Part shown: positions 461 to 25,364 of the stretch, in pieces | Layout of the letters: each line of letters begins with the position of its first letter | How positions within the stretch are numbered: the first letter of the stretch is position 1 | Assembly (NCBI GenBank): GCA_020627685.1 | Contig: JAHDGK010000014.1 | Location: 35,304-90,897, forward strand | Direction of reading: 5' to 3' | DNA from: Granulosicoccus sp. | Lineage (GTDB): Bacteria; Pseudomonadota; Gammaproteobacteria; Granulosicoccales; Granulosicoccaceae | Length of the DNA: 55,594 nt | Translations under genes and position numbers: made by a program | Notes under the pieces: model-generated | The model's input: only the letters and a program-made list of their open reading frames with translations | Told to the model about the DNA's origin: nothing | Databases searched by the model: none

Positions 461-1564
461 TCAGCGCCAGGCAAATCGTTCTCCGGATAGCCAAATAGCG
501 ACAGGTTCATCGTCCTCTATCTCCAGCCATTGTGCCTGCGCGCCTGGAGAGATTCTTCCCAGTGTCTCGTGCTGAATCCATTGAGCGGGAATTGCGCTTA
601 GCATGGCACCTATCGTGTGCCAGTCAACGTCCCATTCGCGCAACACGGAGATCACGCGACGTTGCGTCAAGCAGCTACCGGCAGTTGTGCCATCGGGTAG
701 CAGTACGTGGTCTCCTGATTTAGTCACACTCAGTGAACCCAGTGTGTATTTTCCATCGGGCATGCCTGACGCCGCTGTCCCATCGGTGACGCTATAAAGA
801 TTAGGTATGGCACGCTTTGCAACATCAAATGCTGCTCTGTCTACGTGCAGTCCATCGATAATAATTTCTGCGAAATCAGCATAGGCCAATGCTGCGGTGG
901 CGGCGCCACCTCCACGGTGAGCGATTCCGCTCATGGCGTTAAAGAGATGCGTTACGCCGCAACCTGCGGCCAGAGCTTCGCTTGCCTGATGCCAGGAACA
1001 TAAGGTGTGACCAATTTGTGCGCGTACATTGTATTTATGACATAGCGCTATGAGATCGTTGCGGGGATCGAGCTCCGGTGCAAACGTCACAACCTTCACA
1101 ATACCTACACGCAACCAGGCGTCCAATTGCTGTAAATCTATTTCCGTGGCGTGTGGCGGTTGTGCTCCCAGTTTGTCTGGATTAATAAAGGGACCTTCCA
1201 GATGAACACCGAGCAACGTAGCGGAATCTTCGTCGGGTGTTTGCATAACGCGCGCCGCGTTATTAATAAATTGGCTTGTTTCCTGGAACGGTGCGGTTAC
1301 CGAGGTTGCCAGCAGTGCACCTGCTCCGTGTAGGGCATGTGCCTTTAGCGTACCGCGAATGGCGGCTTCGCTATTCATGCAGTCGTGCCCGCCACCTCCG
1401 TGAACATGCAAATCAACCGGCGCTGGCAGGAATAGGGTGGACGAATGACTTTTCGAGCTGGGTACTAAGGAATGAACCGTATGGTCATGATGGCATACGG
1501 CATCAATAAAGCCTTCGGGGGTCCACCAAAGCCCTGTGGTTTGTTTGTTCGCAACAATGCTCAT
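461..1564 (-). CDS. nagA: N-acetylglucosamine-6-phosphate deacetylase
   Basis: This cytoplasmic amidohydrolase removes acetate from GlcNAc-6-phosphate to give glucosamine-6-phosphate, the step before NagB. The protein has 367 residues, close to the family norm. Visible motifs are 'DLHVHGGGG' near the N-terminus, the metal-binding glutamate in 'HLEGPF', histidines in 'IGHT' and 'THLFNAMS', and the catalytic aspartate in 'SVTDGTAASG'. It lies 6 bases downstream of the GntR regulator on the same strand, so the two form a nagR-nagA transcription unit that diverges from the transporter-nagB operon. Assignment is firm from motifs and context. Confidence 0.95.
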   Translation of the reverse strand: MSIVANKQTTGLWWTPEGFIDAVCHHDHTVHSLVPSSKSHSSTLFLPAPVDLHVHGGGGHDCMNSEAAIRGTLKAHALHGAGALLATSVTAPFQETSQFINNAARVMQTPDEDSATLLGVHLEGPFINPDKLGAQPPHATEIDLQQLDAWLRVGIVKVVTFAPELDPRNDLIALCHKYNVRAQIGHTLCSWHQASEALAAGCGVTHLFNAMSGIAHRGGGAATAALAYADFAEIIIDGLHVDRAAFDVAKRAIPNLYSVTDGTAASGMPDGKYTLGSLSVTKSGDHVLLPDGTTAGSCLTQRRVISVLREWDVDWHTIGAMLSAIPAQWIQHETLGRISPGAQAQWLEIEDDEPVAIWLSGERFAWR

Positions 1565-1570
1565 GGCAAG

Positions 1571-2272
1571 TTAGCGTTGGATCTCATGGGAGAATGTCCA
1601 TCGGTCAGGGCGGAACCAGCAGTGAGAGTATTCTACCGGGGTATTGTTAGCTGCATAGCCTGCCCGAATTACCAGCATCAGTGGTGTGTTTTCGTCGACA
1701 TCCAATCTATCCGATTGTGATTTATCAGCCAGAACTGGAAAGTACTGCTGCCGCACGCGCTGCGGCAAGGTGTTGTTCTTTTGCATAGCCCGGTAGAGGC
1801 TCCCATCCGGCCACGGCCAAGTCGGGGCTCTGGTGGCAAGCAAGGTTGCATGTTCGAGTAGGAGGGGTTCACCTTCCCCCGTACGGACTCTCCGGATGCG
1901 CAGAACATCACTGCCTTTAGGCACACAGAAATGCGCGCTTTCCTCACGATTACTTTTGCCCAGCTTGCGGCTAATGAGTATGGATCCCGGGGTCAGGCCT
2001 CTGGACATGCAGTCCTCGGAAAAGCTGGTAATGCTGTTAAGTGGTTGTTTGAGGTGCGACAGGGATTGAACGATGTAGCCTGAGCCTTGGCGTGCTTGCA
2101 ACAGTTGCTCGTCCACTAACTCTTTTAATGCACGGCGTATCGTTACCCGGGAGACCGAAAACTGTTCCATCAGGAGTCTTTCAGCGGGCAATGCCTGACC
2201 GGGACGATAGTCTCCGTCTGCAAAGCTTGCGCGCAAATTCTCCGCAATTTTCAAGTACATCGGGCCTGTCAT
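1571..2272 (-). CDS. GntR/HutC-family (UTRA) regulator of amino-sugar genes
   Basis: The protein has 233 residues: an N-terminal GntR winged helix (codons about 5-70, with 'PAERLLMEQFSVSRVTIRRA') and a C-terminal UTRA ligand-binding domain. NagR/DasR-type members bind GlcNAc-6-P or GlcN-6-P and release DNA. I chose the ATG at 2272 because an AAAGGA sits 8 bases upstream; an in-frame TTG at 2278 is less likely. The gene is cotranscribed with nagA and diverges from the sugar transporter, so it probably represses both units through the 2273-2440 gap. Ligand identity is inference from context. Confidence 0.88.
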   Translation of the reverse strand: MTGPMYLKIAENLRASFADGDYRPGQALPAERLLMEQFSVSRVTIRRALKELVDEQLLQARQGSGYIVQSLSHLKQPLNSITSFSEDCMSRGLTPGSILISRKLGKSNREESAHFCVPKGSDVLRIRRVRTGEGEPLLLEHATLLATRAPTWPWPDGSLYRAMQKNNTLPQRVRQQYFPVLADKSQSDRLDVDENTPLMLVIRAGYAANNTPVEYSHCWFRPDRWTFSHEIQR

Positions 2273-2440
2273 TATCAAATTCCTTTAAACCTAGGGGTGG
2301 AGCGTATAGGAAAATCTGATCGCCTACTTAAGAATTCAAAAAATACGATTTGAAATTTGTATCTAATTGGTATTGTATCTCGTTTGTACATCATATAGCA
2401 TCCAAGATTCAATACAGGCAAATGTGAAGGAGAGGTTCGG
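2273..2440. promoter_or_regulatory. Divergent nag control region
   Basis: This 168-base AT-rich gap separates the regulator-nagA unit from the transporter operon. It contains two direct copies of TTGTATCT at 2357-2364 and 2373-2380, 16 bases apart, which are candidate regulator contacts. A possible -35 is TTGAAA at 2350-2355. A good ribosome-binding site (AAGGAGAGG) precedes the substrate-binding protein. No clear palindrome of the HutC type was found, so operator placement is tentative. Confidence 0.4.
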
Positions 2441-3691
2441 ATGACGACACGTGTATTCAAAGCCGGTTTACTGGCAACCACGCTCTGTGTGAGTGGTATT
2501 GCGGCAGCAGATAAAGTGGTTATTTCCATTGAAAGTTGGCGGGCAGAAGATCAGGCCTTATGGGATGAACTCATTCTCCCGGTCTTTGAAGCTCAAAACC
2601 CCAACATAGATGTTCAGTTCAAGCCAACTACGGCCACGGAGTACAACGCTGCGTTGAATGCAAGGCTCGCTGGCGGTACAGCAGGTGACATTATTACTTG
2701 TCGTCCGTTTGACAACGCATTGGCTATGTACGATGCGGGCAATCTGGCGAACATCGCAGAGCTTGAAGGCTTATCAAATTTTTCAGACGTTGCGAAAGCG
2801 GCATGGTCTACTGATAACGGCGATGCAAAATTTTGTGTACCGATGGCGTCGGTTATTCACGGCTTCATGTACAACAAGGATGCGTTTGCAGAATTAAACC
2901 TGGAAGTACCCAAGACAGAAGCCGAGTTTTACGCGGTTCTCGACGCCATTAAAGACGACGGTACTTACATCCCTATGGCGATGGGCACCAAAGACCAATG
3001 GGAAGCGGCAACCATGGGATACACCAACGTCGGTCCTGCTTATTGGGGCGGTGAGGACGGTCGTTTGGGACTGATCTCTGGCGATGCCAAAATGACTGAC
3101 GATGGCTTTGTCGAAGGTTTCCGGCAAATGGCCAAATGGACTCCGTATCTAGGCAACGGTTTTCAGGCGCAAGGTTACACCGACAGCCAGAATCTCTTTA
3201 CATTGGGTAGAGCCGCTATTTATCCAACAGGATCATGGGAGATAACAGGCTTTCAACAGAATGCAGACTTCGAACTTGGTGCGTTTGCTCCTCCAAGTAA
3301 AGACGCTGATAGCAGCTGCTACATCAGCGATCACACGGATATCGGTATTGGCATGAATGCGAGCACAGAGAACAAAGATGAAGTAATGACTTTCCTTGCG
3401 TGGACAACCTCGGCTGAGTTTGCAGAGCTACTCACCAACGCTGCACCGGGTTTCTTCTCTTTGTCATCACATGATATTAACGTTGAAAACGCGTTGGCTA
3501 ATGAGTTTGTTGCCATGCGTGGACAATGTGAAGCGACCATCCGAGTTGCTCACCAAATTCTGTCTCGTGGTGAGCTGCCATTAGGTAATCAACTTTGGAC
3601 CTTAGCGGCCAATGTTATCAATGGCACTCAGACTCCAGAGGATGCGGCAGCTGAGGCTCAGGCGAACCTGGATGGCTGGTATAAGCCTTAA
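2441..3691 (+). CDS. Sugar ABC transporter substrate-binding protein (probably GlcNAc or chito-oligosaccharide)
   Basis: A 416-residue periplasmic binding protein of the family-1 (MalE/UgpB-like) type. A Sec signal peptide covers about residues 1-23 (ending 'SGIAAA'), and the mature part starts 'DKVVISIESW', typical of cluster B sugar binders. The gene begins an ABC operon that ends in nagB and faces nagA, which strongly implies an amino sugar or its oligomer as ligand. A GGAG-type ribosome-binding site sits just upstream. A hairpin follows the stop codon (see 3712-3741), a common way to keep binding-protein mRNA more abundant than the permease mRNA. The exact ligand cannot be read from the sequence. 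Confidence 0.88.
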   Translation: MTTRVFKAGLLATTLCVSGIAAADKVVISIESWRAEDQALWDELILPVFEAQNPNIDVQFKPTTATEYNAALNARLAGGTAGDIITCRPFDNALAMYDAGNLANIAELEGLSNFSDVAKAAWSTDNGDAKFCVPMASVIHGFMYNKDAFAELNLEVPKTEAEFYAVLDAIKDDGTYIPMAMGTKDQWEAATMGYTNVGPAYWGGEDGRLGLISGDAKMTDDGFVEGFRQMAKWTPYLGNGFQAQGYTDSQNLFTLGRAAIYPTGSWEITGFQQNADFELGAFAPPSKDADSSCYISDHTDIGIGMNASTENKDEVMTFLAWTTSAEFAELLTNAAPGFFSLSSHDINVENALANEFVAMRGQCEATIRVAHQILSRGELPLGNQLWTLAANVINGTQTPEDAAAEAQANLDGWYKP

Positions 3692-3711
3692 AGTCTATTC
3701 ACTTTTGAAAA

Positions 3712-10867: not shown

Positions 10868-11512
10868 ATGAAATTACCCGTACTGGCCACCCTTGGCCTG
10901 ATTGCCGCCACTTCACTGATCCCCGTTCAGGCGCAAGACACATCCATGAGCTTCTTCATCACCAGCGTCGGGTCCGGCAAGGGCGGTGACCTTGGAGGAC
11001 TAGAAGGCGCAGATGCCCACTGCGCGACGTTGGCAGAGGCTGCCGGTGTGACGGGTAAAACCTGGCGCGCCTACCTAAGCACACAAGAAGAGGGTAAACG
11101 CGGAGTCTCTGCAAGGGACCGTATCGGTGAAGGTCCGTGGATGAACGCTAAAGGTGAATTGATTGCCGCAAACCTTGATCAGCTGCACGTGTCTCCAAAC
11201 ATCTTCAAAAGCACCGCACTGGATGAAAGCGGAAATCTGGTTAACGGCCGGGGCGATATGCCTAACAGGCACGATATCCTGACTGGCAGTATGTCTGACG
11301 GCACCGCATTTTTCCCGCGGGAGACAGAAGACAGAACCTGCAGTAACTGGACGAGTTCAGGTGAAGGGAGTGCATCGGTGGGTCATCACGATAGACACGG
11401 CGGTGGCAACATTTCCTGGAATGCAGCACACAATTCACGTGGCTGTTCGCAGGAAGATCTGACGAAAACCGGTGGCGCAGGCTTGTTCATGTGTTTTGCT
11501 ATAGGCGAATAG
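10868..11512 (+). CDS. Secreted lectin-like (endostatin/C-type lectin-related) protein
   Basis: A 214-residue protein with a Sec signal peptide (cleavage after about 'PVQAQ', residue 22). The mature part opens 'FFITSVGSGKGGDLGGLEG' with 'ADAHCATLAEAAG' and 'TWRAYLST', a signature found in bacterial periplasmic proteins often named lectins for a collagen XVIII/endostatin-like fold. Paired cysteines (in 'DAHC', 'DRTCSNW', 'SRGCSQ', 'MCFA') suggest disulfides in the periplasm. Function is unknown. It diverges from a LytTR regulator and has a good ribosome-binding site. Confidence 0.7.
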   Translation: MKLPVLATLGLIAATSLIPVQAQDTSMSFFITSVGSGKGGDLGGLEGADAHCATLAEAAGVTGKTWRAYLSTQEEGKRGVSARDRIGEGPWMNAKGELIAANLDQLHVSPNIFKSTALDESGNLVNGRGDMPNRHDILTGSMSDGTAFFPRETEDRTCSNWTSSGEGSASVGHHDRHGGGNISWNAAHNSRGCSQEDLTKTGGAGLFMCFAIGE

Positions 11513-11948: not shown

Positions 11949-14900
11949 ATGCAAAACCGTTTTTTCTTGGTCGCTATTTCTAGTTGTCTGCGCGTTTCCA
12001 TCAAGTCTAGGCTGAAAAGCGCTTCGAAGAAACGCATCCAACCTCGTGCTGGGTGCGCTCGAAAAAAGTCTGTCGGAATAGCTGTGGCGCTGACACTTTT
12101 TTTTAGTGCACAATGGGTTCATGCAAACGGTGAATTAACACTTGGTGAGTACGGTCAGGGCGTTTTCTCTGGTACAGCACCCTTCAATACGACTGGTACA
12201 TGTACAGCGGCTGGAGACGACTGTAGCGATACAGATGTCCGTGTCAGAACTGCAGATGATATGCAGTTTTCTTGGTCGATTGTCTCTCAAAACATACCCG
12301 TCGGTGCTCCTGACATGTATGCGGTTATCCTCGAACAAACAATCTTTCCGTCGACAGACGCGGATATCCAATTCTCTAAAATTCCTGTTGCCTGTTTAGC
12401 GCCACCGGCAGGGGCAGGCGGCACGAATCCGCTGTCAGAAATAATCGAGAATTCAGATGGCTCGATAACACTAATGTGTAACCTTGGCAGTATGAGTAAC
12501 GGTGATCAGAAATCGTTCTCTGTCGATGTGAAGCCACTAACAACGTCTGCTAATAACTCGTCGTTTACTACAACGCAAAAAGTCTATGCGCTGGATGCAA
12601 ACGGTGTGCAGATCGTTAGCGATGTTCCCTACGTTAACTCCAATACTTACAGTATTTCTGCCGCGCCTGCCTGGGATGTCTCAACGAAACTTCAACCCTT
12701 ATATCGATCTACTGTATCAACTCAGGATGTAGGTACTGGAAGAGGACCCGAACCGGGATTTTATATGTACACAGCGATCGGAATAGGTGCTGTGGAGCAA
12801 ACAGCTGGTAAGGGTATTAGCGCTCTTACAGACAGCGTTAATTTTGATTTCGACCTCAGCGCTGTTAAAAGCGACGGTGTTACAGCGTTTCCTATTGAAT
12901 ATAAAATCGCGCATTGCTTACCAAATACATCTGGTTGGTCCAAAGCAGTTCACGGTGCCAAAGTCGATCAATCTCATATCCACTATGACCGATCCGTAGT
13001 TGATTCAGGCAGTTGTACTCTAGCCGGAGATGGCGTTACTGGATATAACATCACGATAAGTAACATGGACAGCTTAGGCACGCGCTGGCCCACAAGCACC
13101 TACAACGGGACCGATCTAACAAACGGGCCTTACTATGCAGCGGCCTATCGATTGGCCATCTTTGTGCCGTTCTCTGAAGTCGAGCGGGAAGATACAACTC
13201 CATTGTCTGGACAAGTGTTTGTTGGTAACTGTTTGAGTAATTTTGATCCAATAGATACGAACGGGAATTCGAATTTTGGAGCTGGCTTTGAACCTGGATA
13301 TAACAACTCAGCGATGCCAGATGGGTCGGCGTCGAATAATTGCAATTCTGGTGTTGAGCTGAAGCTGACAGCCAGCAACAGCTATTACATGCACCAGTTC
13401 TCAACAGCTACGGATACTGGGGGGTATAGCTGGGGGCCTTTTATTGATTATTACGACAGAAATAACGGTTCAATCGAACCCAATTTGTCTTACGTACCTC
13501 GTACATATTTGCAGAACACCGGAAGCGTCTCGCTGACTAACGCGGAAATTTGCGTAAAGTTTGATAACACTGTTAGTAAAATAACGGATAGAGGTAACAC
13601 TGGTGCGAGCCCAGGTACATATGCTTACAACACCGGCGGAGTTGGGGCTACGGCTTCTGAGTGGAAAATCGAGTATGCGAGTGGCACCATATCCAATGAT
13701 AATCCGCTTGATGGTGATGGAGATGGTAACTTTGATTTCAATGAGGCTACTAGTAGATATGAAGGAAACTGGGATGAGCTGAAGGCTTTCGATTGTAGCG
13801 CGCCGGGTTTAGTCTGGGATACTGATCCAACCGTGGTAGGAATAGACAATGTTAACTTGGTCAGGCTCAGCCCTGTTGTAAATACAACCGTCTTAGAATC
13901 TGCTGAGGCTGTTTATTTATTTACGCCTTTTGAGGCACGAGATACTTTTAACGGTGGCCCTTACGATTCGCAGGAAATACCACTAGGAACAATTCTGCCT
14001 GCATTCTTTGATACAAAAACTGACGAAACGACTTCAGGCACGTGGCGACAGAGCACTTACAATCCAATAACCACTGGTGGGCGAGGCTACAATGGGGATC
14101 GAATGGCGTTGGTCCGTGTACGAACTGCCATTGTAAATTCAACTGAAGAACCACTCGCGGCTGCGGGTACCATAGAATCCACGCTCGCAGGAAATTCTAT
14201 CGTATGGCGTTTGCAGCCGTCTGTGCAAACGGAAGCTGTAGGCGGGAGTGCGGGTGTCAACGTTGAAGTGGTTGATGTGCTTCCGGTGGAGCTTTCATAT
14301 GACCATGCCTGCACGATAAATCTAGCAGGAGGTGTTACGCCAACCTCCGTACAGTTCAATACCCCCAGCACCGGAAAAACGACTCTGAAATGGTCTTTGG
14401 GAAATCCTCAAAGTGGAACTACACTTGATCCAATTTTGTTCTGTACGAATTCGGAAGCGACTTCTCCTGATGGCACCCAAGCGACAACACAAGCCTATGT
14501 ATCTTCTGACAATGGCCTGAATTCACGAACAATGTCGCAGTCTGTTGAGTTGGCCCAAGTCGGAAATATTCAAGCAACAGCGAATGTAGATGTTACCAGT
14601 GACTTAACTGATGATAGCCAAGTTCATTCACTCAGATGGTATAACTTTTCAAGGGGTGTAGTTGTTGAAACGCCCACTATGATAAACGTTTTACCCCATA
14701 TCAATGACGATAGCAGTCTATCAAGTAGAATTCCTGCATCGAATTTTAGCGGTACATTAGAATTAGTTGCGGCGCCTACTGTGACGTTTTCCGATGGCTC
14801 CGTACCCACAGGTAGTGACCCGTTTGCTGAAATTGGTACTGTTTTTTATACCAATGAGACGCATGCAACCATCAATGATAATCCGAAAAGCAATTCAAGT

Positions 14901-17900
14901 AATTGGTGTGAATATAATGGTAGTACTTTTGTCAATCCCTCTATTGCAGGACAGTCATGCCCAAGTGGATTTTCAGAAGTAACTGCAATAAAACATGAGT
15001 CTAATTATGATTTGGAAGTAGATGGCGACCCTCGACAAGGGTTTCTGATGACTTACACCCTTCAAGCCTCAGGCAACGTGGAGGCAGATCAATATACAAA
15101 TATGTTTGGTGTAAGCTCAGTTACGCTGCCGCAGGAACAGTATGTCAAATCTCAGCGTAGCGTTGTCTATATATCCTCACATTCAATTGGTGACTGGGTT
15201 TTCGTCGATTTAAATAACAACGGTGTCTACAATCCCGGGGTAGATCTACCTGCGCCAGATGGAATAACAATCGAACTTAGAGAGTTTGATACAGGAAGTT
15301 TAGTTGCGACAACGGTAACAGCTGGCGGTGCGTATTTATTTGATCAACAAGCTCCAGGTGATTATTTTATTAGAATACCGGTGACCTTGTTTGCTAATGG
15401 TGTTCTTGGCTCTTGGACAGCTGCTATTAACGGCCAAGCAGCTAATGATGACCTTAACCATCTAGAAGATCACAATGCCATAGTCACCGGAAGCACAACA
15501 ACAACTGGTGTTGAAACTGACAGGATTACCATTTCTGCGTCAGTAGGTGCTGCGGGTCAGGCTCCATCAGGTGATGAACCTACGGGTGATAACATCATTC
15601 CAATCGCTGATAACTCAACTAATGATGATTTTTCAAATTTGACGGTTGATTTGGGACTGGTAAGCGGTGATGCAGATAAAGACGGATTGTTAGATGTATA
15701 CGAGTATGGAGATGGCGGTATAAATTCATTACGGGATACTGATGGCGATTCTATTCCAGATTATCTCGATGAAGATTCAGATGGCGATGGTGTCCCGGAT
15801 TTTATCGAATTTGGTGGAAATCCAAATGCACTAGCAGACAACGACGGCGATTTAATTCCAAACATCTACGATACGGATTCTGACAATGACGGGTTGTCAG
15901 ATGGCGATGAGTCAGGATTTTTGGGCCTTGATAGTGATGGTGATGGTATTCCTAATGAGTATGATGTTGACTTCACCGGGGGGAGCGATGCTAACGGTAA
16001 TGGTCTTGACGACGTTATCGAAAGTCTGGAATTGCTAGATAGTGACAACGATGGAATTACTAATCTATTTGATTTAGATAGCGATAATGACGGATTAACA
16101 GATCTCCATGAAAATTTTGGGTCTGATGTTAACGGAGATGGCCGGGCCGATAATTTCACAGATTCAAACCAGGATGGTATGGATGACTCTCTTTCTGCCA
16201 GTTCAGAATTAGTAGATACAGATGGTGACGGTACACCAAATTTTATGGATGCCGACTCCGATAACGATGGGATTTACGATATTGTTGAAGCCGGTGGTAC
16301 TGATGCTAATCTTGATGGAATGGTCGATGGGTTAATTGATTCGAATCAAGATGGATTCGATGATACGTTGTTTGCCACATCGCTAGTTGACACCGATAGC
16401 GACGATGATTCGATTCCAGACAGAATAGACTTTGACTCTGATAACGACTCAATACCAGATGCTATAGAAGTTTCCTTCTCTGGGTATGGGGACACGGATA
16501 ACGATGGTATTAAAGATCATTTGGATACGGATTCCGACAATGACGGAATTCTCGATGCTATTGAAAGTGGGATTACAAATTCTGATTCCGATTCAGATGG
16601 GATAGTCAACTACTTTGACATCGATATTGCAGCTGCTGGCGCTCAAGATACAAACAGGGATGGAATCACTGATGGCGCGCAACTCGTAGACACAGATTTT
16701 GATGGAATTCCTAACTATATGGATGTGGATTCCGATGGTGATGGGTTATCAGATTTATATGAAGGGACGGGCAATATTGATGGTGATGCCGAAGCGAACT
16801 ATTTAGATAGTAGTGACATCGGCTCCTGGGATTTCGACGGTGATGGAATCAGTAACGGCGCTGAGAGTTGTACAGTCTCTGGGTATGATGTCATGGAGGT
16901 TACCACTGCCGGAGTTGAACCGTCAGCTACATTGGTTAACGGAGTTAATCAAGCCACACTAGATTTCCGGTTTGAAGGTGGGGAGACATTTCGCTCATCT
17001 ACCATAGGAACCGATCGTTTCTCTATGTCCGAGCTATTGGCGTATGTCGGTACTTATTCAGTAGTATCTTCACAGCCCATGTTTAGCGTTGACATACTGT
17101 TTGATAATTTTGTTCCCGGCACTGAGTTTGGGAATTTCATTCTCACTTTGGCCGACGGTTCGGTAGTGAGCAATGCAGATTTTACTATATATCCTGACGT
17201 GATAAGTGCCAGCGCTCAACTTGGCGATTTTTCTGCTTTAGGAAGTAGTACGACAGCCTCCATGGTGAAGGACAGTTCTACTGGGGTTCATCGATTCACT
17301 GGAAATTCACCTACGAATCAATTTGGTGGGCGTATCAAACTGTTGAACAGTCACGAATCATTTGATGGTGTTGGAATTAAGTCGATCACCTTTGAAAAAT
17401 TCTCTGGAACTACAGATAACTTCACCGGATCGATCAGTGTTGCGTCCAGGTTTTACCATGGGGTTGATACTGATTCTGACGGTCTCAACGATTGCATAGA
17501 TGTTGATTCTGATGCTGATCTAATACTAGATTCGGTAGAAGGAGCCGTAGACACAGATAACGATTCCACGCCTGACTTTCGCGATTCTGACTCGGATGGC
17601 GACAACATACCCGATTCCATTGAAGGCAGCATAGACACAGATAACGACGGACTAAGAAATTCTATCGATCTTGATTCGGATGGGGATACATTATCTGATT
17701 TTGTTGAGTCTGCTAACGATACTGATAATGACGGTACACCAAACTACAAGGATCTTGATTCTGATGACGATGGCATTAGCGATTCTATTGAGTTAACACA
17801 AGACCCAGATTCTGATTCAGTACCTGCGTATTTAGATTTGGATTCAGACGGCGACGGTATCATCGACCAACAAGAGTCCTCAATCGATAGTGATAATGAC

Positions 17901-20900
17901 GGAACAGCTGACTTTCTAGACTTAGATTCAGATGGAGATAACATTCCGGATTCGCAAGAAGGTACAGGGGATCTAGATGCAGATGGTATCGACGATTATC
18001 TCGATGATGATGTAGATGGCGATGGAATTAGCGATTCGTTAGAGGGAAGTTTAGACAGTGACAACGATGGAGTACCGAATTATCGTGATGGAGATTCTGA
18101 TGGAGACGGAATATCAGATTTATTGGAAAGCACTGTCGATAGCGACAATGATGGTATTCCCAATTACCTCGATACTGATAGCGACAATGATGGTATTAAC
18201 GATTTTGTAGAGAGCGCATCTGATACCGACTCCGATGGAGTTCCTAACTATCTCGATATAGATTCGGATGGCGATGGTATCAACGATGTCCTTGAAGGTT
18301 CTCTCGATTCCGATAACGACGGTATATTAAATTCATACGATATTGATTCAGATGGTGATGGAATCTCTGATCTTATTGAAGGAACGACTGACACCGACAA
18401 TGATTCAATACCAAACTACCTCGATACTGATAGTGACGCTGATGGTTTATTAGATTTAAATGAAGGCCGTGCTGATACAGATTTAGATGGTCAAGCGGAC
18501 TACCTTGATACTGATAGTGACAATGACGGCGTGTCTGATGAGTTAGAAGGTTCAACAGATACCGATTCAGACGGTATTGCCGATTATTTGGATACTGACG
18601 CAGATGGTGATGGGATCCCGGATATTGATGAGGGTGTTCTCGACACCGATAACGATGGTACACCGAACTATAAAGATACAGATAGCGATAATGACGGTCA
18701 CGGCGATGCGGCTGAAGGTGTCGTAGATTCCGATGATGACGGTATTGCTGATTACTTAGATACAGACAGTGATAACGATTCTATTCCAGACAGTCTTGAA
18801 TCTTCTAGTGATTCCGATAATGACGGTTTGGCGGATTACCTAGATACCGACAGTGACGAAGATGGTATTGGCGATTCAGTAGAGGGTACTGCGGATAGCG
18901 ACTCAGATGGAGTTGCAAACTATCTTGATCTTGATAGCGATGGTGACGGAATTCCTGATGCGGTGGAGGGTGCGGGTGACCTTGATGGTGATCAGATTGC
19001 TGACTATCTAGACTTAGACAGTGACAATGATGGTATTTCGGATAGTGTTGAAGGATCAGGAGATAGCGACGGTGATGGTATTGCCGACGCGATTGATGAA
19101 GACTCTAACGGAGACGGTATCCCTGATGTGGCGCTGGGCAATGATGATTTGGATAGCGACGGGATTCCAGACTATCTGGATGGTGACATTGATGGTGACG
19201 GAATTGCCAATGGCGCTGAAGGTACGGTTGTACCGGCTCAGGATGATGATGGTGATGGTATCCCGAACTATGCCGACACTGATAGTGACAATGACGGAAT
19301 CCTAGATAGCATTGAGGGTACGGCAGATGCTGATGGCGATGGTATCGCTGATGCTCACGATACTGACAGCGACAACGATGGAATTCCTGATGCAACAGAA
19401 GGCAGCTTCGATTCAGATGGCGATGGCATTCCAAACCATGTTGATACTGACAGTGACAATGATGGAATCCTAGATAGCACTGAATCCGTAGGCGACTCTG
19501 ATGCAGATGGTGTTGTTGATTACCTTGATGCCGACAGTGACAACGATGGAATTAATGATATCGACGAAGGATTTGTGGATACTGACGGTGATGGCCTGGC
19601 GGATTACATTGACAGTGACAGCGACAATGACGGTATTCCCGACGGGATAGAGGGTAGTGGAGACGCGGATGGCGATTCAATTCCTGACTACCTTGATTTA
19701 GATAGCGACAACGATGGTATTCCTGACGAAATAGAAGGAGCAGTTGACACTGACGGCGATGGCCTTGCAGATTCTGTGGATGCAGACTCAGACGGTGATG
19801 GGGTTTTAGATGAGTTTCTAAGCAGTGATGACCAAGACGGTGATGGTGTTGCAGATTACCTAGATAACGACGTTGATGGTGATGGCATATTCAATATCGA
19901 TGAGGGTTCCATAGCTCCACCAGAAGATTCAGACGGTGACGGAATTCCGAACTATTCAGATATGGACAGCGATAACGATGGCGTTCTCGATGCCGTTGAA
20001 GGTAACACTGATTCTGATAGTGATGGGGTGGCAGATTTCTTAGACTTGGACAGTGACGGTGATGGTATTTCAGATGAGCTTGAGACATCGGTTGATACCG
20101 ATGCTGACGGAATCTCTGACTATATTGATTCGGATTCTGATAATGATGGAATCTTGGACTCGCTCGAGGGCGCAATTGATACTGACAATGATGGCATCGC
20201 AGATTATCGTGATCTTGACAGTGATGATGACGGACTCGGTGACGCAGCGGAGGGGCTCGTAGACACAGATGGTGATGGAACAACGGACCGCTTAGATAGT
20301 GATAGCGACAACGATGGTATTCCTGATCTCCTTGAGGCCGCCGGTGATACTGATGGTGATGGGCTGCAGGATTATCTAGATACAGATAGTGATGATGATG
20401 GAATACCCGATAGCGTGGAAGGTCTGCTCGATACAGACGGTGACGGAGCTGCTGACTATCTCGATGGAGATAGTGATGGCGATGGAATCCAGGATTCGGT
20501 AGAGCAAGACATCGATTCAGATGGCGATCAAATACCGGACTATCTAGACACTGACAGTGATAATGATGGTATCCCTGATAATGAGGAGGGTGCTGGGGAC
20601 TCTGATGGTGACGGATTGTCAGATGCCATAGATACAGATTCTAATGGTGACGGTATTCCTGATGCCGCCTTAGGCACTGATGATCTCGATGGTGACGGCA
20701 TTCCAAACTATCTTGATGCTGACATTGATGGCGATGGATTGGCCAATGGTGCTGAGGGTTCAGTCGTCCCAGCGGAGGATAGTGATGGAGATGGTATTCC
20801 TAACTATGCGGACACTGACTCTGACAACGATGGAATTTCTGACGAGTTAGAACGGAATGGTGATGCCGATGGTGATGGCATTCCCGATTCGCAAGACACC

Positions 20901-23900
20901 GATAGCGATGGTGATGGAATAGCGGACGTTTTAGAAGGTGTGGTTGATTCAGATAATGACGGTATTCTTGATTACTTGGATATTGACAGTGATAACGACG
21001 GCATAAGTGATGGCGTTGAATCATCTGCTGACACAGACGGTGATGGCATTCCCAATTATATCGACTTAGACTCTGATAACGATGGAATATCAGACAGTTT
21101 TGAGGGGACCGCAGATACAGACGGTGATGGAGCTGTAAACTTTCTAGATATCGATAGTGATGGTGATGGTGTTGCAGACACTGTGGAAGGCGCAAGCGAT
21201 ACGGATGCTGACGGGATTCCAGACTTTATCGATTTAGATAATGACGGTGATGGTATACCGGACATCATAGAAGGCTCAGTTGATAGCGATGGAGATGGCA
21301 TCACTGATGCGAATGATCCTGATGCGAATGGGGACGGAATTCCAGATAGCGCCGTGGGCAGTGGGGATACTGATGGCGATGGGGTTCCCGATTATTTGGA
21401 TGGTGACATCGATGGCGATGGAATTCCAAACGGCAGTGAAGGTTTGCTGGACCCTGCTGCCGACAGCGATAATGACGGTATTCCTAATTATGCAGACACC
21501 GATAGCGACAACGATGGCATCTTAGATTCTATCGAAGGTACCGGCGATGCCGACGGTGATGGGTTACTAGACGCCTATGATTCAGATGCCGATAACGATG
21601 GTTTAGTCGATGGTTTGGAAGGCTCTAACGACACTGATGGCGATGGAATCCCTGATTATCTTGATGCCGATAGCGACGATGATGGAATTCCCGATAGCGT
21701 TGAAGGTGCTGTGGATTCGGATCAGGATGGCATAATGGATTCCAAAGATATCGATGGTAATAACGACGGTATTCCTGATGCCGAACTATCGTCGGCTGAT
21801 CTTGACGGTGATGGTGTGCTCGATTATCTAGATAACGACATCGACGGTGATGGCGTGTCCAATGTTAACGAAGCCCAACCAGATAGAACCACTGATAGTG
21901 ATTTTGACGGCTTACCGGATTTCTTGGATACCGATAGTGATAACGATGGTATTCCTGATTCGGAAGAATCTCGCGGTGATACTGATGGCGATGGAATTCC
22001 TGATTTTGCCGACACGGATGCGGATGGTGATGGGGTCTCCGATATCTACGAAGGATTTGGTGATACTGATTCTGATGGAGTGCCAGACTTCCTAGATCTC
22101 GATGCGGATGACGACGGAATACCGGATCAGACAGAAGGATTTGAAGATACTGATGAAGACGGAATTCTGGATATCAAGGATCTGGACTCTGATAATGATG
22201 GTATTCCAGACATTGTAGAGGCCGGAGGTGATGATGTAGATGGTAATGGTCGAGTAGACAACTACTCGGATACTAACAACGATGGTTACGATGACGCGAT
22301 GGCGGCGTTTCCGTTAATCATTATTGATACCGATGGAGACAGTTGGTCTGACTACAAAGACTTGGATTCAGATAATGACGGGATCCCTGATACGCGTGAA
22401 TCAACACTTGCATCGTTAGATAGCAATGGTGACGGTAAAGTCGACAGCGTAGTTAATGATATGTTGTCTGATGCCACGATTGATCAAGTGCTCGCAGGTT
22501 CGCTAGGGTCGCTGTTACTGAACGATTTCATTGATGTTGACGTTGATGGCTGGGCAGATAACATTCCAGCCAATATGATTATTGATACTGACGGTGACGG
22601 TATACCTAATCATCAAGATCTCGACAGTGATGGCGATGGAATTAATGACATTACTGAAGCTGGTGGGCAGGATGCAAATGGCGATGGGCAAGTGGATGGC
22701 TGGATAGATACCGATAGAGATGGCGTTCCAGATGACATTGATGCTGATCAACTGGGGTTAGCGGATAGCGACGGTGATGGGATAGCAGACTTTGCGGATG
22801 CAGACTTCCTAGGTGAGTCTGATACCGATGGTGACGGAATTGTCGATCGTTTTGACGTCGACCCTTATGATGAAGGCTTTGCGCGATCGTCTTCAGGAGA
22901 GCCGCTCCTGAGTAGTGCATTGCCTGATACTGATGGTGATGGTATTCCAGATGTGCAGCAACCGATAAATGAGCAAGGTTTTATTCGTACAGGTCTTGGA
23001 GGTGGCGGATCATTCGGACCTCTGAGTTTGATACTACTGATGCTGGTAGGACTAAACCAGCGATGTTGTAAACGAGTTCAACATTGGATTCATAGTCAAG
23101 GGGCTAAGCTTTTCGTAGTTGGTTTTGGAGCGTTCCTAAGTTCTGGATGTACAAGTTTGTACCACACGTCTGACACCGATGAGTTTCGGAATCAAACGGT
23201 CTCATCAGAATTACGGGTGGGCCGTCACGCTTACGTCGCTGCGGGAGTGGGCACCAGCCGTTTAGCGCCGGATACCAGTGAAGTCACGACGTTTTCATTA
23301 AATGACCGGGCAAATGCAGGTCAACAATTAGCTGTTGGTATCGATCTGAGCCGTCAGCTTTCCGTGGAGCTGCATTCCGCTGATTTAGGGAGCGCAGGGT
23401 TTTCTCCAACAGGACGGATAAATTACAGTATGCATGGAGCTAGTGCACTTTTTTATGCTGGGCGAAACCGTGATAACTTTAAGAGGCGAGGATTCACAGG
23501 CTTCGGTAGGGTCGGTTATGGAGTGATGGAAAATTCTGCCGAAGGTAGGTTGCCTTATGCTCGAGAGAATAACAATCATCTGTTAATCGGAGCAGGTCTG
23601 GAATATATGACGCAGGTAGGTGTCGGTTTCAGAGTGGAAGTTCTATCGTTTGAAGATGATGCACAGTACGGACAACTCGCGTTAGTCTATCGTTTGGGTA
23701 CAGCGAAAAAACAAAGAGGAGCTATTGCAGCAGTTGAGTCCACTCCCTCAGTTCAAGCCACACGTGACGAACCAAAACTTTATGCGGCGATGACGGTTCC
23801 GAAGGAAACAAGCCGTGTGTGCGAATTAGAAATGAATTTTGAAGATGTGCTGTTTGAATACAATTCTGCTGAAATCAAATCAGAAAATCTGAAGCTACTA

Positions 23901-24161
23901 TCCAAAGTAGCTCAGACAATGAATGAATGTAGCAATCTAAACCTCACACTCCTGGGGCACGCAGACTCCATAGGATCTGTTACATTTAATTCGATGCTGT
24001 CACAAAAAAGATCTGATGCAGTTCTACAGAGCCTACTCTTGCAGGGTATTGATGCAACCCGAATGTCTTCGCAGGTTTTTGGAGAATTGTCGCCGGTGGC
24101 TGAAAACTCGTCGGTAAACGGGCGGCAACTAAACCGACGTGTCCAATTACTGGTGAAATAG
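11949..24161 (+). CDS. Giant TSP3-repeat surface protein with internal sorting signals and C-terminal OmpA domain
   Basis: A 4070-residue product. Residues 1-38 are an unusually long basic N-terminal extension, and the signal-peptide core with cleavage near 59 ('WVHA') follows. About 60-1075 is a beta-rich ectodomain with DUF11-like parts. About 1078-1235 is an SdrD-B-like domain ('IGDWVFVDLNNNGVY'). About 1241-1637 is an irregular TSP3 block and 1639-1837 a non-repetitive domain. Residues 1840-3427 form 56 contiguous TSP3 units. Residues 3684-3702 are a GGGGS plus hydrophobic plus basic stretch like a GlyGly-CTERM tag. A second hydrophobic segment ends in a lipobox 'LSSGC' (Cys3734), then comes an OmpA-like beta-barrel (about 3745-3935) and an OmpA peptidoglycan-binding domain (about 3957-4070, 'NRRVQLL'). 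It probably forms a Ca2+-stiffened surface rod. The start lacks a clear ribosome-binding site. Confidence 0.88.
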   Translation: MQNRFFLVAISSCLRVSIKSRLKSASKKRIQPRAGCARKKSVGIAVALTLFFSAQWVHANGELTLGEYGQGVFSGTAPFNTTGTCTAAGDDCSDTDVRVRTADDMQFSWSIVSQNIPVGAPDMYAVILEQTIFPSTDADIQFSKIPVACLAPPAGAGGTNPLSEIIENSDGSITLMCNLGSMSNGDQKSFSVDVKPLTTSANNSSFTTTQKVYALDANGVQIVSDVPYVNSNTYSISAAPAWDVSTKLQPLYRSTVSTQDVGTGRGPEPGFYMYTAIGIGAVEQTAGKGISALTDSVNFDFDLSAVKSDGVTAFPIEYKIAHCLPNTSGWSKAVHGAKVDQSHIHYDRSVVDSGSCTLAGDGVTGYNITISNMDSLGTRWPTSTYNGTDLTNGPYYAAAYRLAIFVPFSEVEREDTTPLSGQVFVGNCLSNFDPIDTNGNSNFGAGFEPGYNNSAMPDGSASNNCNSGVELKLTASNSYYMHQFSTATDTGGYSWGPFIDYYDRNNGSIEPNLSYVPRTYLQNTGSVSLTNAEICVKFDNTVSKITDRGNTGASPGTYAYNTGGVGATASEWKIEYASGTISNDNPLDGDGDGNFDFNEATSRYEGNWDELKAFDCSAPGLVWDTDPTVVGIDNVNLVRLSPVVNTTVLESAEAVYLFTPFEARDTFNGGPYDSQEIPLGTILPAFFDTKTDETTSGTWRQSTYNPITTGGRGYNGDRMALVRVRTAIVNSTEEPLAAAGTIESTLAGNSIVWRLQPSVQTEAVGGSAGVNVEVVDVLPVELSYDHACTINLAGGVTPTSVQFNTPSTGKTTLKWSLGNPQSGTTLDPILFCTNSEATSPDGTQATTQAYVSSDNGLNSRTMSQSVELAQVGNIQATANVDVTSDLTDDSQVHSLRWYNFSRGVVVETPTMINVLPHINDDSSLSSRIPASNFSGTLELVAAPTVTFSDGSVPTGSDPFAEIGTVFYTNETHATINDNPKSNSSNWCEYNGSTFVNPSIAGQSCPSGFSEVTAIKHESNYDLEVDGDPRQGFLMTYTLQASGNVEADQYTNMFGVSSVTLPQEQYVKSQRSVVYISSHSIGDWVFVDLNNNGVYNPGVDLPAPDGITIELREFDTGSLVATTVTAGGAYLFDQQAPGDYFIRIPVTLFANGVLGSWTAAINGQAANDDLNHLEDHNAIVTGSTTTTGVETDRITISASVGAAGQAPSGDEPTGDNIIPIADNSTNDDFSNLTVDLGLVSGDADKDGLLDVYEYGDGGINSLRDTDGDSIPDYLDEDSDGDGVPDFIEFGGNPNALADNDGDLIPNIYDTDSDNDGLSDGDESGFLGLDSDGDGIPNEYDVDFTGGSDANGNGLDDVIESLELLDSDNDGITNLFDLDSDNDGLTDLHENFGSDVNGDGRADNFTDSNQDGMDDSLSASSELVDTDGDGTPNFMDADSDNDGIYDIVEAGGTDANLDGMVDGLIDSNQDGFDDTLFATSLVDTDSDDDSIPDRIDFDSDNDSIPDAIEVSFSGYGDTDNDGIKDHLDTDSDNDGILDAIESGITNSDSDSDGIVNYFDIDIAAAGAQDTNRDGITDGAQLVDTDFDGIPNYMDVDSDGDGLSDLYEGTGNIDGDAEANYLDSSDIGSWDFDGDGISNGAESCTVSGYDVMEVTTAGVEPSATLVNGVNQATLDFRFEGGETFRSSTIGTDRFSMSELLAYVGTYSVVSSQPMFSVDILFDNFVPGTEFGNFILTLADGSVVSNADFTIYPDVISASAQLGDFSALGSSTTASMVKDSSTGVHRFTGNSPTNQFGGRIKLLNSHESFDGVGIKSITFEKFSGTTDNFTGSISVASRFYHGVDTDSDGLNDCIDVDSDADLILDSVEGAVDTDNDSTPDFRDSDSDGDNIPDSIEGSIDTDNDGLRNSIDLDSDGDTLSDFVESANDTDNDGTPNYKDLDSDDDGISDSIELTQDPDSDSVPAYLDLDSDGDGIIDQQESSIDSDNDGTADFLDLDSDGDNIPDSQEGTGDLDADGIDDYLDDDVDGDGISDSLEGSLDSDNDGVPNYRDGDSDGDGISDLLESTVDSDNDGIPNYLDTDSDNDGINDFVESASDTDSDGVPNYLDIDSDGDGINDVLEGSLDSDNDGILNSYDIDSDGDGISDLIEGTTDTDNDSIPNYLDTDSDADGLLDLNEGRADTDLDGQADYLDTDSDNDGVSDELEGSTDTDSDGIADYLDTDADGDGIPDIDEGVLDTDNDGTPNYKDTDSDNDGHGDAAEGVVDSDDDGIADYLDTDSDNDSIPDSLESSSDSDNDGLADYLDTDSDEDGIGDSVEGTADSDSDGVANYLDLDSDGDGIPDAVEGAGDLDGDQIADYLDLDSDNDGISDSVEGSGDSDGDGIADAIDEDSNGDGIPDVALGNDDLDSDGIPDYLDGDIDGDGIANGAEGTVVPAQDDDGDGIPNYADTDSDNDGILDSIEGTADADGDGIADAHDTDSDNDGIPDATEGSFDSDGDGIPNHVDTDSDNDGILDSTESVGDSDADGVVDYLDADSDNDGINDIDEGFVDTDGDGLADYIDSDSDNDGIPDGIEGSGDADGDSIPDYLDLDSDNDGIPDEIEGAVDTDGDGLADSVDADSDGDGVLDEFLSSDDQDGDGVADYLDNDVDGDGIFNIDEGSIAPPEDSDGDGIPNYSDMDSDNDGVLDAVEGNTDSDSDGVADFLDLDSDGDGISDELETSVDTDADGISDYIDSDSDNDGILDSLEGAIDTDNDGIADYRDLDSDDDGLGDAAEGLVDTDGDGTTDRLDSDSDNDGIPDLLEAAGDTDGDGLQDYLDTDSDDDGIPDSVEGLLDTDGDGAADYLDGDSDGDGIQDSVEQDIDSDGDQIPDYLDTDSDNDGIPDNEEGAGDSDGDGLSDAIDTDSNGDGIPDAALGTDDLDGDGIPNYLDADIDGDGLANGAEGSVVPAEDSDGDGIPNYADTDSDNDGISDELERNGDADGDGIPDSQDTDSDGDGIADVLEGVVDSDNDGILDYLDIDSDNDGISDGVESSADTDGDGIPNYIDLDSDNDGISDSFEGTADTDGDGAVNFLDIDSDGDGVADTVEGASDTDADGIPDFIDLDNDGDGIPDIIEGSVDSDGDGITDANDPDANGDGIPDSAVGSGDTDGDGVPDYLDGDIDGDGIPNGSEGLLDPAADSDNDGIPNYADTDSDNDGILDSIEGTGDADGDGLLDAYDSDADNDGLVDGLEGSNDTDGDGIPDYLDADSDDDGIPDSVEGAVDSDQDGIMDSKDIDGNNDGIPDAELSSADLDGDGVLDYLDNDIDGDGVSNVNEAQPDRTTDSDFDGLPDFLDTDSDNDGIPDSEESRGDTDGDGIPDFADTDADGDGVSDIYEGFGDTDSDGVPDFLDLDADDDGIPDQTEGFEDTDEDGILDIKDLDSDNDGIPDIVEAGGDDVDGNGRVDNYSDTNNDGYDDAMAAFPLIIIDTDGDSWSDYKDLDSDNDGIPDTRESTLASLDSNGDGKVDSVVNDMLSDATIDQVLAGSLGSLLLNDFIDVDVDGWADNIPANMIIDTDGDGIPNHQDLDSDGDGINDITEAGGQDANGDGQVDGWIDTDRDGVPDDIDADQLGLADSDGDGIADFADADFLGESDTDGDGIVDRFDVDPYDEGFARSSSGEPLLSSALPDTDGDGIPDVQQPINEQGFIRTGLGGGGSFGPLSLILLMLVGLNQRCCKRVQHWIHSQGAKLFVVGFGAFLSSGCTSLYHTSDTDEFRNQTVSSELRVGRHAYVAAGVGTSRLAPDTSEVTTFSLNDRANAGQQLAVGIDLSRQLSVELHSADLGSAGFSPTGRINYSMHGASALFYAGRNRDNFKRRGFTGFGRVGYGVMENSAEGRLPYARENNNHLLIGAGLEYMTQVGVGFRVEVLSFEDDAQYGQLALVYRLGTAKKQRGAIAAVESTPSVQATRDEPKLYAAMTVPKETSRVCELEMNFEDVLFEYNSAEIKSENLKLLSKVAQTMNECSNLNLTLLGHADSIGSVTFNSMLSQKRSDAVLQSLLLQGIDATRMSSQVFGELSPVAENSSVNGRQLNRRVQLLVK
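15670..16860 (+). repeat. Irregular thrombospondin type 3 repeat block 1 (coding)
   Basis: Residues about 1241-1637 of the giant protein are Asp-rich Ca2+-binding repeats of variable spacing (DxDxDG cores, with extra 'DSNQDGxDD' and 'DANxDG' segments). Unlike the second block there is no fixed period. The block lies between the SdrD-B-like domain and a non-repetitive domain at 16864-17458. Confidence 0.85.
17466..22229 (+). repeat. Regular TSP3 array: 56 units of 28 (or 32) residues (coding)
   Basis: By direct reading there are 56 contiguous units starting at residue 1840: 51 of 28 residues (84 bp) and five of 32 residues (96 bp). The consensus is DxDxDGIxDYLDxDSDxDGIxDxxEGxx. The 32-residue units are numbers 21 (19146-19241), 29 (19830-19925), 39 (20682-20777), 47 (21366-21461) and 52 (21798-21893). 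Each has a Pro-containing 4-residue extension, 'VVPA' or similar, and each follows a unit that has lost the usual Glu-Gly and reads 'NGDGIPD' or similar. Synonymous codons vary widely between units. Confidence 0.93.
22998..23150 (+). other. Internal GlyGly-CTERM-like segment and lipobox inside the giant gene
   Basis: Codons 3684-3688 read GGGGS, followed by the hydrophobic run 'FGPLSLILLMLVGL' and basic 'NQRCCKR'. This is the layout of a GlyGly-CTERM tag cut by rhombosortase and normally found at a protein's extreme C-terminus. About 20 residues later a second hydrophobic stretch 'LFVVGFGAFLSSGC' has a lipobox with Cys3734 (23148-23150), the layout of a lipoprotein signal peptide. No stop codon separates them. 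Confidence 0.7.
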
Positions 24162-24198: not shown

Positions 24199-24218
24199 CA
24201 TACCGTACTAACGGTATG
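24199..24218 (+). promoter_or_regulatory. Hairpin that contains the start codon of the next gene
   Basis: CATACCGT (24199-24206) and ACGGTATG (24211-24218) form a perfect 8-bp stem with a 4-base loop ACTA, and the last three bases are the ATG of the following gene. The nearest GGAG (24188-24191) ends 24 bases before the ATG, too far for normal initiation, and no alternative in-frame start lies between them. Confidence 0.55.
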
Positions 24219-25364
24219 AGTCATCAAGCGCAAAGAATCACAGCGTCCTTACACTGCCTTCTTGCCGGGGACGCATTGTCGATGCCGGTCCATTGGTTTT
24301 ATAGAACATCGGATATTCTCAAATACTTCCCTCCCTACGGGATCGAGAGAATGGAACCTGCGCCAGACGATCACCCGAGTTCTATCATGTCATTGCACTC
24401 GACTGAGTCGGGCGGGCGGCGGTCAGCAAGAAAGTCGGTTAAACATCATGGTTCATTTCCTAATCGGCAGAATGAAGCGCTAAGTGGAGAGGTTGTTGGC
24501 GATATAATTCTGAAGGGTCGACGAGAGCTGTGGGGAGGAAACCGTACCCACTATCATCACAACATGCTGGCGGGAGACAATACGCTAAACGCCTATTGTG
24601 CCCGATTAATGATTCGTCATCTTAATGAAAACTGTGGTTACGATTCGTCTGTTTGGCTAAAGCAATATGTAGAATTCATGATGTCCGATCCTCCACAGCA
24701 TCCCGATACCTATGCTGAGTCTTATCATCGAGGATTCTTCTCAAATCTAAAAAAAGGCATGCCAATAACTCGTTGTGGTGCTGTTACTCACGACACTGCG
24801 TCCATGGGGGCTCTCGTGACCATTGCGCCGCTCGCATTTGCGCTATTTAAAGAGCATACACTTGAACAGGCGCAAGATATTTGTAGTGCTCATGTTGAAC
24901 TGACTCATCCAGATGATTTTTTGCAATGTGTGGTTCGGTCTTACGTCGAATTACTCTACACGCTTTTGAAAATATGCCCGAGGTCGGAAGATAATCCAAA
25001 TCAGAATTTCGTGACGGCGATAGAGCGCGCGACGGATGTGATTCCAGGGACAAAGCTCACTGAGTTACTTCAACGAGATCGTAGCGATGCGTCGGTTGTG
25101 GGTGGTTTGTATTCCACTGCCTGCTACATAACCGATTCATGGCCTTCGGTTTGTTATTTGGCGGCAAAGTATAATCAGGATGTAAACAAGGCCCTGTTGA
25201 TAAATACCAACTTGGGTGGTGAAAACGCACACAGAGGTTCTGTGCTGGGGTCAATCGTTGGATTAATGACCACTCAAGGTGGTGATATGTTGTACGAGCA
25301 ATTGCTACATAAAGAGTCTATCAGTGCGGAAATTCAACAGTTTGTTCAAACGTTTAGCCATTAA
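24216..25364 (+). CDS. ADP-ribosylglycohydrolase-family protein
   Basis: A 382-residue protein with the family opening 'LLAGDALSMPVHW' (about codons 16-28). Metal-site counterparts are 'AGDNTLNAY' and 'NLGGENAHRGSVLG' near the C-terminus. In canonical DraG/ARH enzymes the latter reads close to GGDTDT, so two metal-binding Asp/Thr positions are changed to Glu/Asn and the usual chemistry may be altered. DraG-type enzymes remove ADP-ribose from proteins or small molecules; the substrate is unknown here. The start codon is buried in a hairpin. The DCC-family gene follows after 20 bases. Confidence 0.82.
   Translation: MSHQAQRITASLHCLLAGDALSMPVHWFYRTSDILKYFPPYGIERMEPAPDDHPSSIMSLHSTESGGRRSARKSVKHHGSFPNRQNEALSGEVVGDIILKGRRELWGGNRTHYHHNMLAGDNTLNAYCARLMIRHLNENCGYDSSVWLKQYVEFMMSDPPQHPDTYAESYHRGFFSNLKKGMPITRCGAVTHDTASMGALVTIAPLAFALFKEHTLEQAQDICSAHVELTHPDDFLQCVVRSYVELLYTLLKICPRSEDNPNQNFVTAIERATDVIPGTKLTELLQRDRSDASVVGGLYSTACYITDSWPSVCYLAAKYNQDVNKALLINTNLGGENAHRGSVLGSIVGLMTTQGGDMLYEQLLHKESISAEIQQFVQTFSH

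Follow-up and report, generated by a model that had tools for sequence, protein, structure and literature searches.

A giant Granulosicoccus gene with an internal sorting tag and an internal lipoprotein signal: a probable fused two-gene surface module

The window analysed here, a stretch of 55,594 nucleotides from a Granulosicoccus sp. genome, carries a giant gene in which a sorting tag and a lipoprotein signal lie between a long rod and an OmpA-type protein, raising the question as to whether its product is a single tethered chain or is processed into two mature proteins. The first-pass annotation had read the junction as that of a processed polyprotein, a putative assignment that is supported by the sequence comparisons described here. 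We propose that the gene very probably encodes a secreted polyprotein, being the fused form of a surface module that comprises two genes, one for a sortable rod and one for an OmpA-barrel partner, and that its product would be processed into two chains.

The frame 11949-24161 is open throughout, with tag, lipobox, barrel and OmpA domain in one chain (Table 1). Reading of the translation by eye suggests a candidate signal peptidase I (SPase I) site after WVHA in the N-terminal export signal, and the N-terminal 1240 residues have zero matches to PHROGs. An SdrD B-like domain precedes the TSP3 rod, which is 28% aspartate and matches the TSP3 profile PF02412 with 59 bits (cut-off 25) and with 12 stretches within one 1200-residue piece; the DxDxDG repeats are predicted to bind Ca2+. 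The first hydrophobic segment of the junction is followed by 368 residues to the protein end, and the tag is therefore internal, not C-terminal. The GGGGS, the two hydrophobic runs and the basic part described previously at the junction are all present, but the basic RCCKR lies between the two hydrophobic segments at residues 3705-3709, past the interval of 3684-3702 to which it had been assigned. The second run, LFVVGFGAFLSSGC (residues 3721-3734), ends in a lipobox at Cys3734 (codon 23148-23150) just as annotated, in agreement with both translation and hydropathy. It has the basic n-region, hydrophobic h-region and lipobox Cys of a lipoprotein signal, as judged by pattern and hydropathy only, and this signal is internal in the giant protein and N-terminal in the split and orphan homologues.

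The presence of two hydrophobic spans at the junction is more than chance. A scan of all 4070 residues for 15-residue spans with a mean Kyte-Doolittle value of at least 1.6 finds four that do not overlap, two of them N-terminal and two at the junction, the second of these (residues 3721-3735) including LSSGC; when the threshold is lowered to 1.2 there are eight. A 19-residue span at 1.4 recovers only segment 1 and the N-terminal signal, and segment 2 drops out because it is short, as signal peptides are. The OmpA-like barrel and OmpA domain reported downstream in the same frame are borne out by the AlphaFold model of the C-terminal 318 residues (mean pLDDT 87.8, pTM 0.55), which has eight long strands in the barrel together with an OmpA domain, the architecture of an OmpA-type protein, and whose best Foldseek match is an E. 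coli OmpA model (E 7.9e-13); the barrel scores at best 18.6 bits against Pfam PF13505, below the cut-off of 28.7. Across the junction AlphaFold predicts a helix over segment 1 and has a confidence below 50 over segment 2, and we have therefore left this model out of the evidence for a hairpin. To our knowledge, a lipidated N-terminus directly ahead of an eight-stranded barrel (23109-23696) is an unusual build for an outer-membrane protein.

Table 1. Features of the giant gene, in window coordinates.
Feature	Coordinates	Strand	Content or basis
Whole ORF, 4070 aa plus stop	11949..24161	+	predicted exported TSP3 rod / internal sorting tag / internal lipoprotein signal / barrel-OmpA
N-terminal extended export signal (predicted)	11949..12128	+	hydropathy: hydrophobic spans aa 5-19, 41-55
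SdrD B-like domain, aa 1079-1179	15183..15485	+	PF17210, 38.6 bits vs cut-off 29.7
Rod of TSP3-like DxDxDG repeats, aa about 1241-3660	15669..22928	+	composition, PF02412
GGGGS of internal GlyGly-like sorting tag, aa 3684-3688	22998..23012	+	TIGR03501 11.8 bits, below cut-off 15.5
Hydrophobic segment 1, aa 3688-3702	23010..23054	+	predicted stop-transfer helix; hydropathy; AlphaFold helix, modest confidence
Basic loop, aa 3703-3720, 4 K/R, 0 D/E	23055..23108	+	predicted cytoplasmic
Hydrophobic segment 2 with lipobox LSSGC, predicted internal lipoprotein signal peptide	23109..23150	+	hydropathy; kept in kin
Eight-stranded beta-barrel, model residues 8-164	23226..23696	+	AlphaFold; Foldseek to OmpA barrels
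OmpA peptidoglycan-binding domain, aa 3968-4063	23850..24137	+	PF00691, 46.2 bits vs cut-off 27.2; Foldseek

We infer the following topology and processing. The N-terminal signal would send the TSP3 rod through Sec, segment 1 would halt transfer with the basic loop remaining cytoplasmic, and segment 2, acting as a second signal peptide, would restart export. Cleavage by signal peptidase II before Cys3734 would give the barrel-OmpA protein in lipidated form, destined for the outer membrane, and an intramembrane protease, most likely rhombosortase for the GGGGS tag, would cleave at segment 1, freeing and anchoring the rod, which the type II system could then move to the surface; the leftover would be a short membrane hairpin. 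The likely gain would be 1:1 synthesis of the rod and its partner.

The double junction recurs in many genomes. With the C-terminal part as query, matches were found in at least 53 of 57 genomes, its own included, and stretches fetched mainly for long frames provided 136 OmpA-type ORFs from 101 sources, including the window; because the loci were picked for long frames, the proportions given here are not prevalences. The barrel lies more than 150 residues into the frame in 54 ORFs (53 distinct genes, one having been fetched twice), and 49 of these have two hydrophobic segments ahead of it (47 in the window's family and two in genome G044 of another family), spread over 26 genomes with five in the window's own. 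Between the segments, every one of the 49 loops carries a net positive charge, with a median length of 12 residues and the shortest of 2. At the end of the second segment there is a lipobox in 26 ORFs and an SPase-I-type site in 23, according to a pattern scan corrected by eye: the uncorrected scan gave 27 lipoboxes, 19 A-x-A-type sites (a loose pattern) and three ORFs with neither, and the sites read by eye are SPase-I-type in L098, the lipobox VSSC in L067, and LHA, GQA and TQA in L046, L065 and L095 respectively. As to the five ORFs lacking a double junction, two entries are a single gene with an unrelated N-terminal extension, another has a different unrelated extension, one seemingly has only a non-coding frame upstream, and in one the junction reads N; by eye, no readable rod-barrel chain without the junction is present among these five.

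A search of 370 genomes of the class gave matches in 321 at E 1e-20, many of them through the OmpA domain alone, and 15 genomes of other families were picked from it. Eighteen of their 21 ORFs have the double junction; beyond these, L181 and L191 have a weaker segment 1 as read by eye and L192 (genome G206) has no tag, such that carriers of a fused junction outside the window's family number 14 genomes. Two of the 18 (L189 and L194) have the double junction and no DxDxD rod. The whole loop is about four arginines in several of these ORFs (e.g. L191, L195 and L196), from which we infer that the basic cluster of the tag must double as the n-region of the signal peptide that follows. A query with a five-row alignment identified homologues at 23 loci in named genomes, belonging to Granulosicoccus, other Granulosicoccaceae and one Chromatiales assembly. 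We also note that a 12049-residue frame (L103, contig C70 of genome G028) carries a barrel-OmpA part with a lipobox junction, and that tandem OmpA-type paralogues of about 370, 630 and 400 residues occur at L081, L090, L099, L102, L104, L105 and L122, several of them around a fused rod gene.

The tag of the giant gene was annotated as GlyGly-CTERM, and this assignment holds for the order of its motifs (Gly/Ser, hydrophobic, basic) but not for its score with TIGR03501, which is below the cut-off, as are those of the Gly-type tags of L044 and L050. Five of 14 other internal Gly-type tags do exceed it (L180, 23.5 bits; L177, 19.0; L185, 17.7; L178, 16.7; L191, 16.5), and the window's genome has nine GlyGly tags over the cut-off of this model, which is exceeded in one of 14 control genomes. 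The rhombosortase gene that the annotation had suggested looking for is present (TIGR03902, 148.7 bits, cut-off 84; over cut-off in none of the 14 control genomes), and the genome also encodes the protease MrtJ (110.7 bits, cut-off 75) and the type II secretion protein GspD (610 bits). The likeness to the GlyGly-CTERM/rhombosortase system, as presented in the available text of PMC3237569, PMC13393428 and PMC6219818, thus extends from the Gly/Ser motif, hydrophobic segment and basic cluster to the enzyme and type II system in the genome; the differences are that the tag of the giant gene is internal and below the model cut-off. Rhombosortase is over cut-off in 35 of the 36 genomes of the window's family, the exception being G021, which nonetheless has a Gly-type split tag (L139). 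It is also present in all 15 other-family genomes searched, 14 of which have a fused junction, against a background of 5/20 class genomes (G044 left out); the co-occurrence gives Fisher p values of 3e-5 (13/13 vs 5/20) and, counted by families, 9e-4 (7/7 families vs 5/20), kinship being handled by the family count only.

The annotated pairing of a GlyGly tag with a lipobox describes the window gene but not its relatives in general: most fused relatives have a Cys tag of the JDVT-CTERM type, for which the protease is MrtJ, and about half have an SPase-I-type site. The window tag itself has no Cys and no match to the JDVT-CTERM model NF033191, whereas most paralogues' tags carry the Cys motif. 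All six internal Cys tags examined in a first test pass NF033191 with 28.6-38.8 bits (cut-off 27), as do both internal Cys tags from other families (31.8 and 35.5 bits); among the paralogues in the window's genome L048 (31.6 bits) and L045 (30.4 bits) pass and L046 (23.5 bits) fails, and among split-form tags L135 (37.9 bits) passes and L137 (24.8 bits) misses. The scan of 57 genomes places the internal tags of L046, L073, L075, L078, L084 and L088 below the cut-off, and the model is over cut-off in none of the 14 control genomes. MrtJ is over cut-off in 32 of 36 family genomes, the four without it being 74-88% complete; it was not found in G016 and G020 (completeness 88 and 76%) despite their fused Cys tags. 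In the other families it is over cut-off in six of 15 genomes, including both with Cys tags. The genomes G102 and G217 belong to a single genus; MrtJ is present in G102 together with a Cys tag, and G217 has no MrtJ and a homologue with a Gly-type tag. The barrel-OmpA parts of these two are only 48% identical, and we therefore speak of homologues. JDVT-CTERM and MrtJ are described in PMC11980579, in its available text, as a conserved two-gene neighbourhood of MrtJ and a single target protein. The fused paralogues whose internal tags pass NF033191 resemble that system, with MrtJ in the genome, and differ from it in having several targets and an internal tag position; the window's own tag differs further in lacking the Cys.

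These data bear on whether both signals are used. It is unlikely that only one is, with signal peptidase II (or I) cutting segment 2 and segment 1 serving as a plain rod anchor, or with only the rod being sorted. Such an arrangement would fit the window tag's score below the GlyGly cut-off, and anchoring may not require the tag helix to be cut: in the working model given in the available text of PMC11980579, a small fraction of tagged proteins reaches the surface without myxosortase, the helix remaining uncleaved. Against it speak the scores of the internal tags, with eight of the Cys tags above the JDVT-CTERM cut-off and five of the Gly-type tags above that of GlyGly-CTERM, as well as the presence of the corresponding proteases.

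The anticipated homologues in which rod and OmpA lipoprotein are separate adjacent genes were found in 21 cases, read by eye, in which a rod or other surface ORF ends in a tag and is either overlapped by an OmpA ORF or followed by one no more than about 150 nt away; 12 genomes have both fused and split forms. One such case, L049, falls in a supported four-row clade (100/97) with the window gene, its paralogue L044 and the fused L050. The L049 rod ORF is closed by a single in-frame TAA after the tag, which is thus C-terminal, and the lipoprotein ATG is in frame 39 nt past the stop, with ASGC as the lipobox; no clear Shine-Dalgarno run is seen before this ATG. When 46 fused and 21 split members are placed on a careful tree, the two states change at least nine times (bootstrap range 9-9), and eight of these changes are forced by starred branches; L097 and L150 are two long branches that meet on this tree and their placement may be wrong. 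A quick tree of 131 rows also gives nine changes.

The lipobox Cys is kept in all 15 fused members of one supported 25-row clade, across 3.75 substitutions per site in summed branch length joining the fused members (the script counted 14, and L086, with ALSGC, was added by eye). In three close fused pairs the ratios of synonymous to amino-acid-changing codons are 5:3, 28:26 and 29:14 at the junction, and 95:16, 123:68 and 128:73 in the barrel-OmpA part. The junction is therefore constrained, but as a whole not clearly above its neighbours, and below barrel-OmpA in two of the three pairs. In one further comparison, the junctions of the fused genes L081 and L089 have three amino-acid differences in 84 codons and the genomes are assigned to different genera, reflecting either recent transfer or bin contamination.

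The fused and split forms and the constraint on the junction bear on a rival reading, a recent or accidental fusion kept as one tethered chain, whose hairpin would stay in the inner membrane while its rod and its OmpA domain act as a single protein. The single frame without a stop, the repeated joining or splitting of the genes, and a junction that in the three close pairs is not clearly more conserved than its neighbours are all compatible with it. Yet such a chain would tie an outer-membrane barrel to the inner membrane, long divergence has preserved both the tag and the signal-peptidase site, as with the lipobox Cys above, and at least nine interchanges of fused and split forms are hard to square with an obligate whole chain, which makes it distinctly improbable. 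A single chain conserved across the junction, which would have spoken against processing, is accordingly not what the homologues present: the state changes repeatedly and the tag and signal peptide are kept.

A second surface-protein family, which ends in tags of the EC-C ... LETGVHGSGVGS type that have no JDVT Cys, is represented by L109, L111, L112, L116, L118, L139, L140 and L147. These eight, the cases examined from the window's family, are all split, but L194 of G084 is fused and has an SPase-I-type signal.

It is very unlikely that the OmpA lipoprotein is made also, or instead, by a translation restart within the long frame. An in-frame ATG, GTG or TTG is present in 38 of the 49 loops (edges included), and the ATG in L044 would make a good lipoprotein start, but 11 of the 49 have no such codon. 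The window gene is one of the 11, with none in its basic loop (residues 3703-3720); its nearest candidates, TTG3694 and ATG3698, are inside segment 1, and no Shine-Dalgarno-like run is seen just upstream. An assembly artefact joining two genes is barely conceivable, for although most of the genomes are many-contig drafts and the named relatives are metagenome-assembled, the in-frame junction is common to separate genomes of many species and the single-contig genome G023 has three.

For the processed polyprotein that we favour, literature searches found two precedents, a bacterial protein noted for its similar build and an archaeal one that was tested. According to the available text of PMC11980579 (mBio 2025), Myxococcus xanthus MXAN_5598 has an internal MYXO-CTERM followed by a barrel and OmpA domain, an atypical configuration, internal tags being rare; the authors suggest a fusion of two genes and propose that the N-terminal part is processed. 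In the portion available of PMC4158809, a table of vesicle proteomics includes the protein under the description OmpA domain protein. It shares with the giant gene a large adhesin region, an internal sorting tag, and an outer-membrane barrel with OmpA domain, and differs in phylum and in its MYXO-CTERM tag, the giant gene and its relatives having GlyGly-like or JDVT tags. As far as that text goes, it is only on the giant-gene side that the joint has a recognisable second signal peptide, with either a lipobox or an SPase I site, that cases number in the dozens, and that sister genes are split. The Haloferax volcanii protein HVO_0405 is a strain-specific fusion of two genes whose central tag is cut in an archaeosortase-dependent manner, as seen by Western blot (PMC7157517, available text); among the texts consulted, it is the one protein for which the cutting of an internal tag is demonstrated. 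It is alike in having fused genes with an internal sorting tag, whereas it is archaeal with a PGF-type tag and a different enzyme, and no lipobox or barrel-OmpA partner is described in that text. The 21 split cases, in which the parts are separate genes, place the giant gene among fused modules of the MXAN_5598/HVO_0405 type. For tags that function within a protein, PMC11980579, in its available part, cites two papers.

The split form has a working analogue in TraA-TraB of Myxococcus, in which a MYXO-CTERM surface protein and its barrel-OmpA partner TraB, which has TSP3 repeats, are encoded by overlapping ORFs and form a 1:1 complex (PMC12045341 and PMC11980579, in the text available); on that text it is also the best analogue for a benefit of joint synthesis, although it comprises two genes. 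The match of the TraB profile to the window gene is confined to the OmpA domain (47 bits, cut-off 700).

Gene fusion with an internal sorting tag is thus already known. As far as the literature searches show, three aspects appear to be new: the use of GlyGly and JDVT tags, a recognisable second signal peptide, of one class or the other, at the joint, and the repeated fused/split interchange; the fused sorting-tag module is also unusually widespread here. Among the titles listed, no relevant literature on internal signals in bacteria was found, and the word 'internal' is absent from the available text of PMC3237569 and PMC13393428; Haft's 2024 JDVT-CTERM paper may discuss internal JDVT tags.

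Among the viruses of eukaryotes, polyproteins that are cleaved by signal peptidases are well known. We lean towards a general bacterial polyprotein strategy in which two exported proteins would be made per frame through a dual-signal hairpin, with the arginine cluster doubling as n-region, the tag swappable between the unrelated proteases rhombosortase (a rhomboid) and MrtJ (a CAAX-type glutamic protease), the second site swappable between signal peptidases I and II, and joined and separate genes interchanging freely. This family would offer a way to study how a second signal peptide functions immediately after a stop-transfer segment, and to ask if internal tags are acceptable to sorting proteases and if a surface rod and its outer-membrane anchor have to be synthesized 1:1. 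It is also a warning to annotators that one giant gene may correspond to two mature proteins.

Finally, the neighbouring genes include, directly downstream of the giant gene, an ADP-ribosylglycohydrolase gene (24216-25364; PF03747), and, just upstream, a gene for a small protein (10868-11512) with endostatin- and DUF1554-like matches below cut-off. The small protein, which might have a C-type-lectin-like fold, may be part of the surface module.
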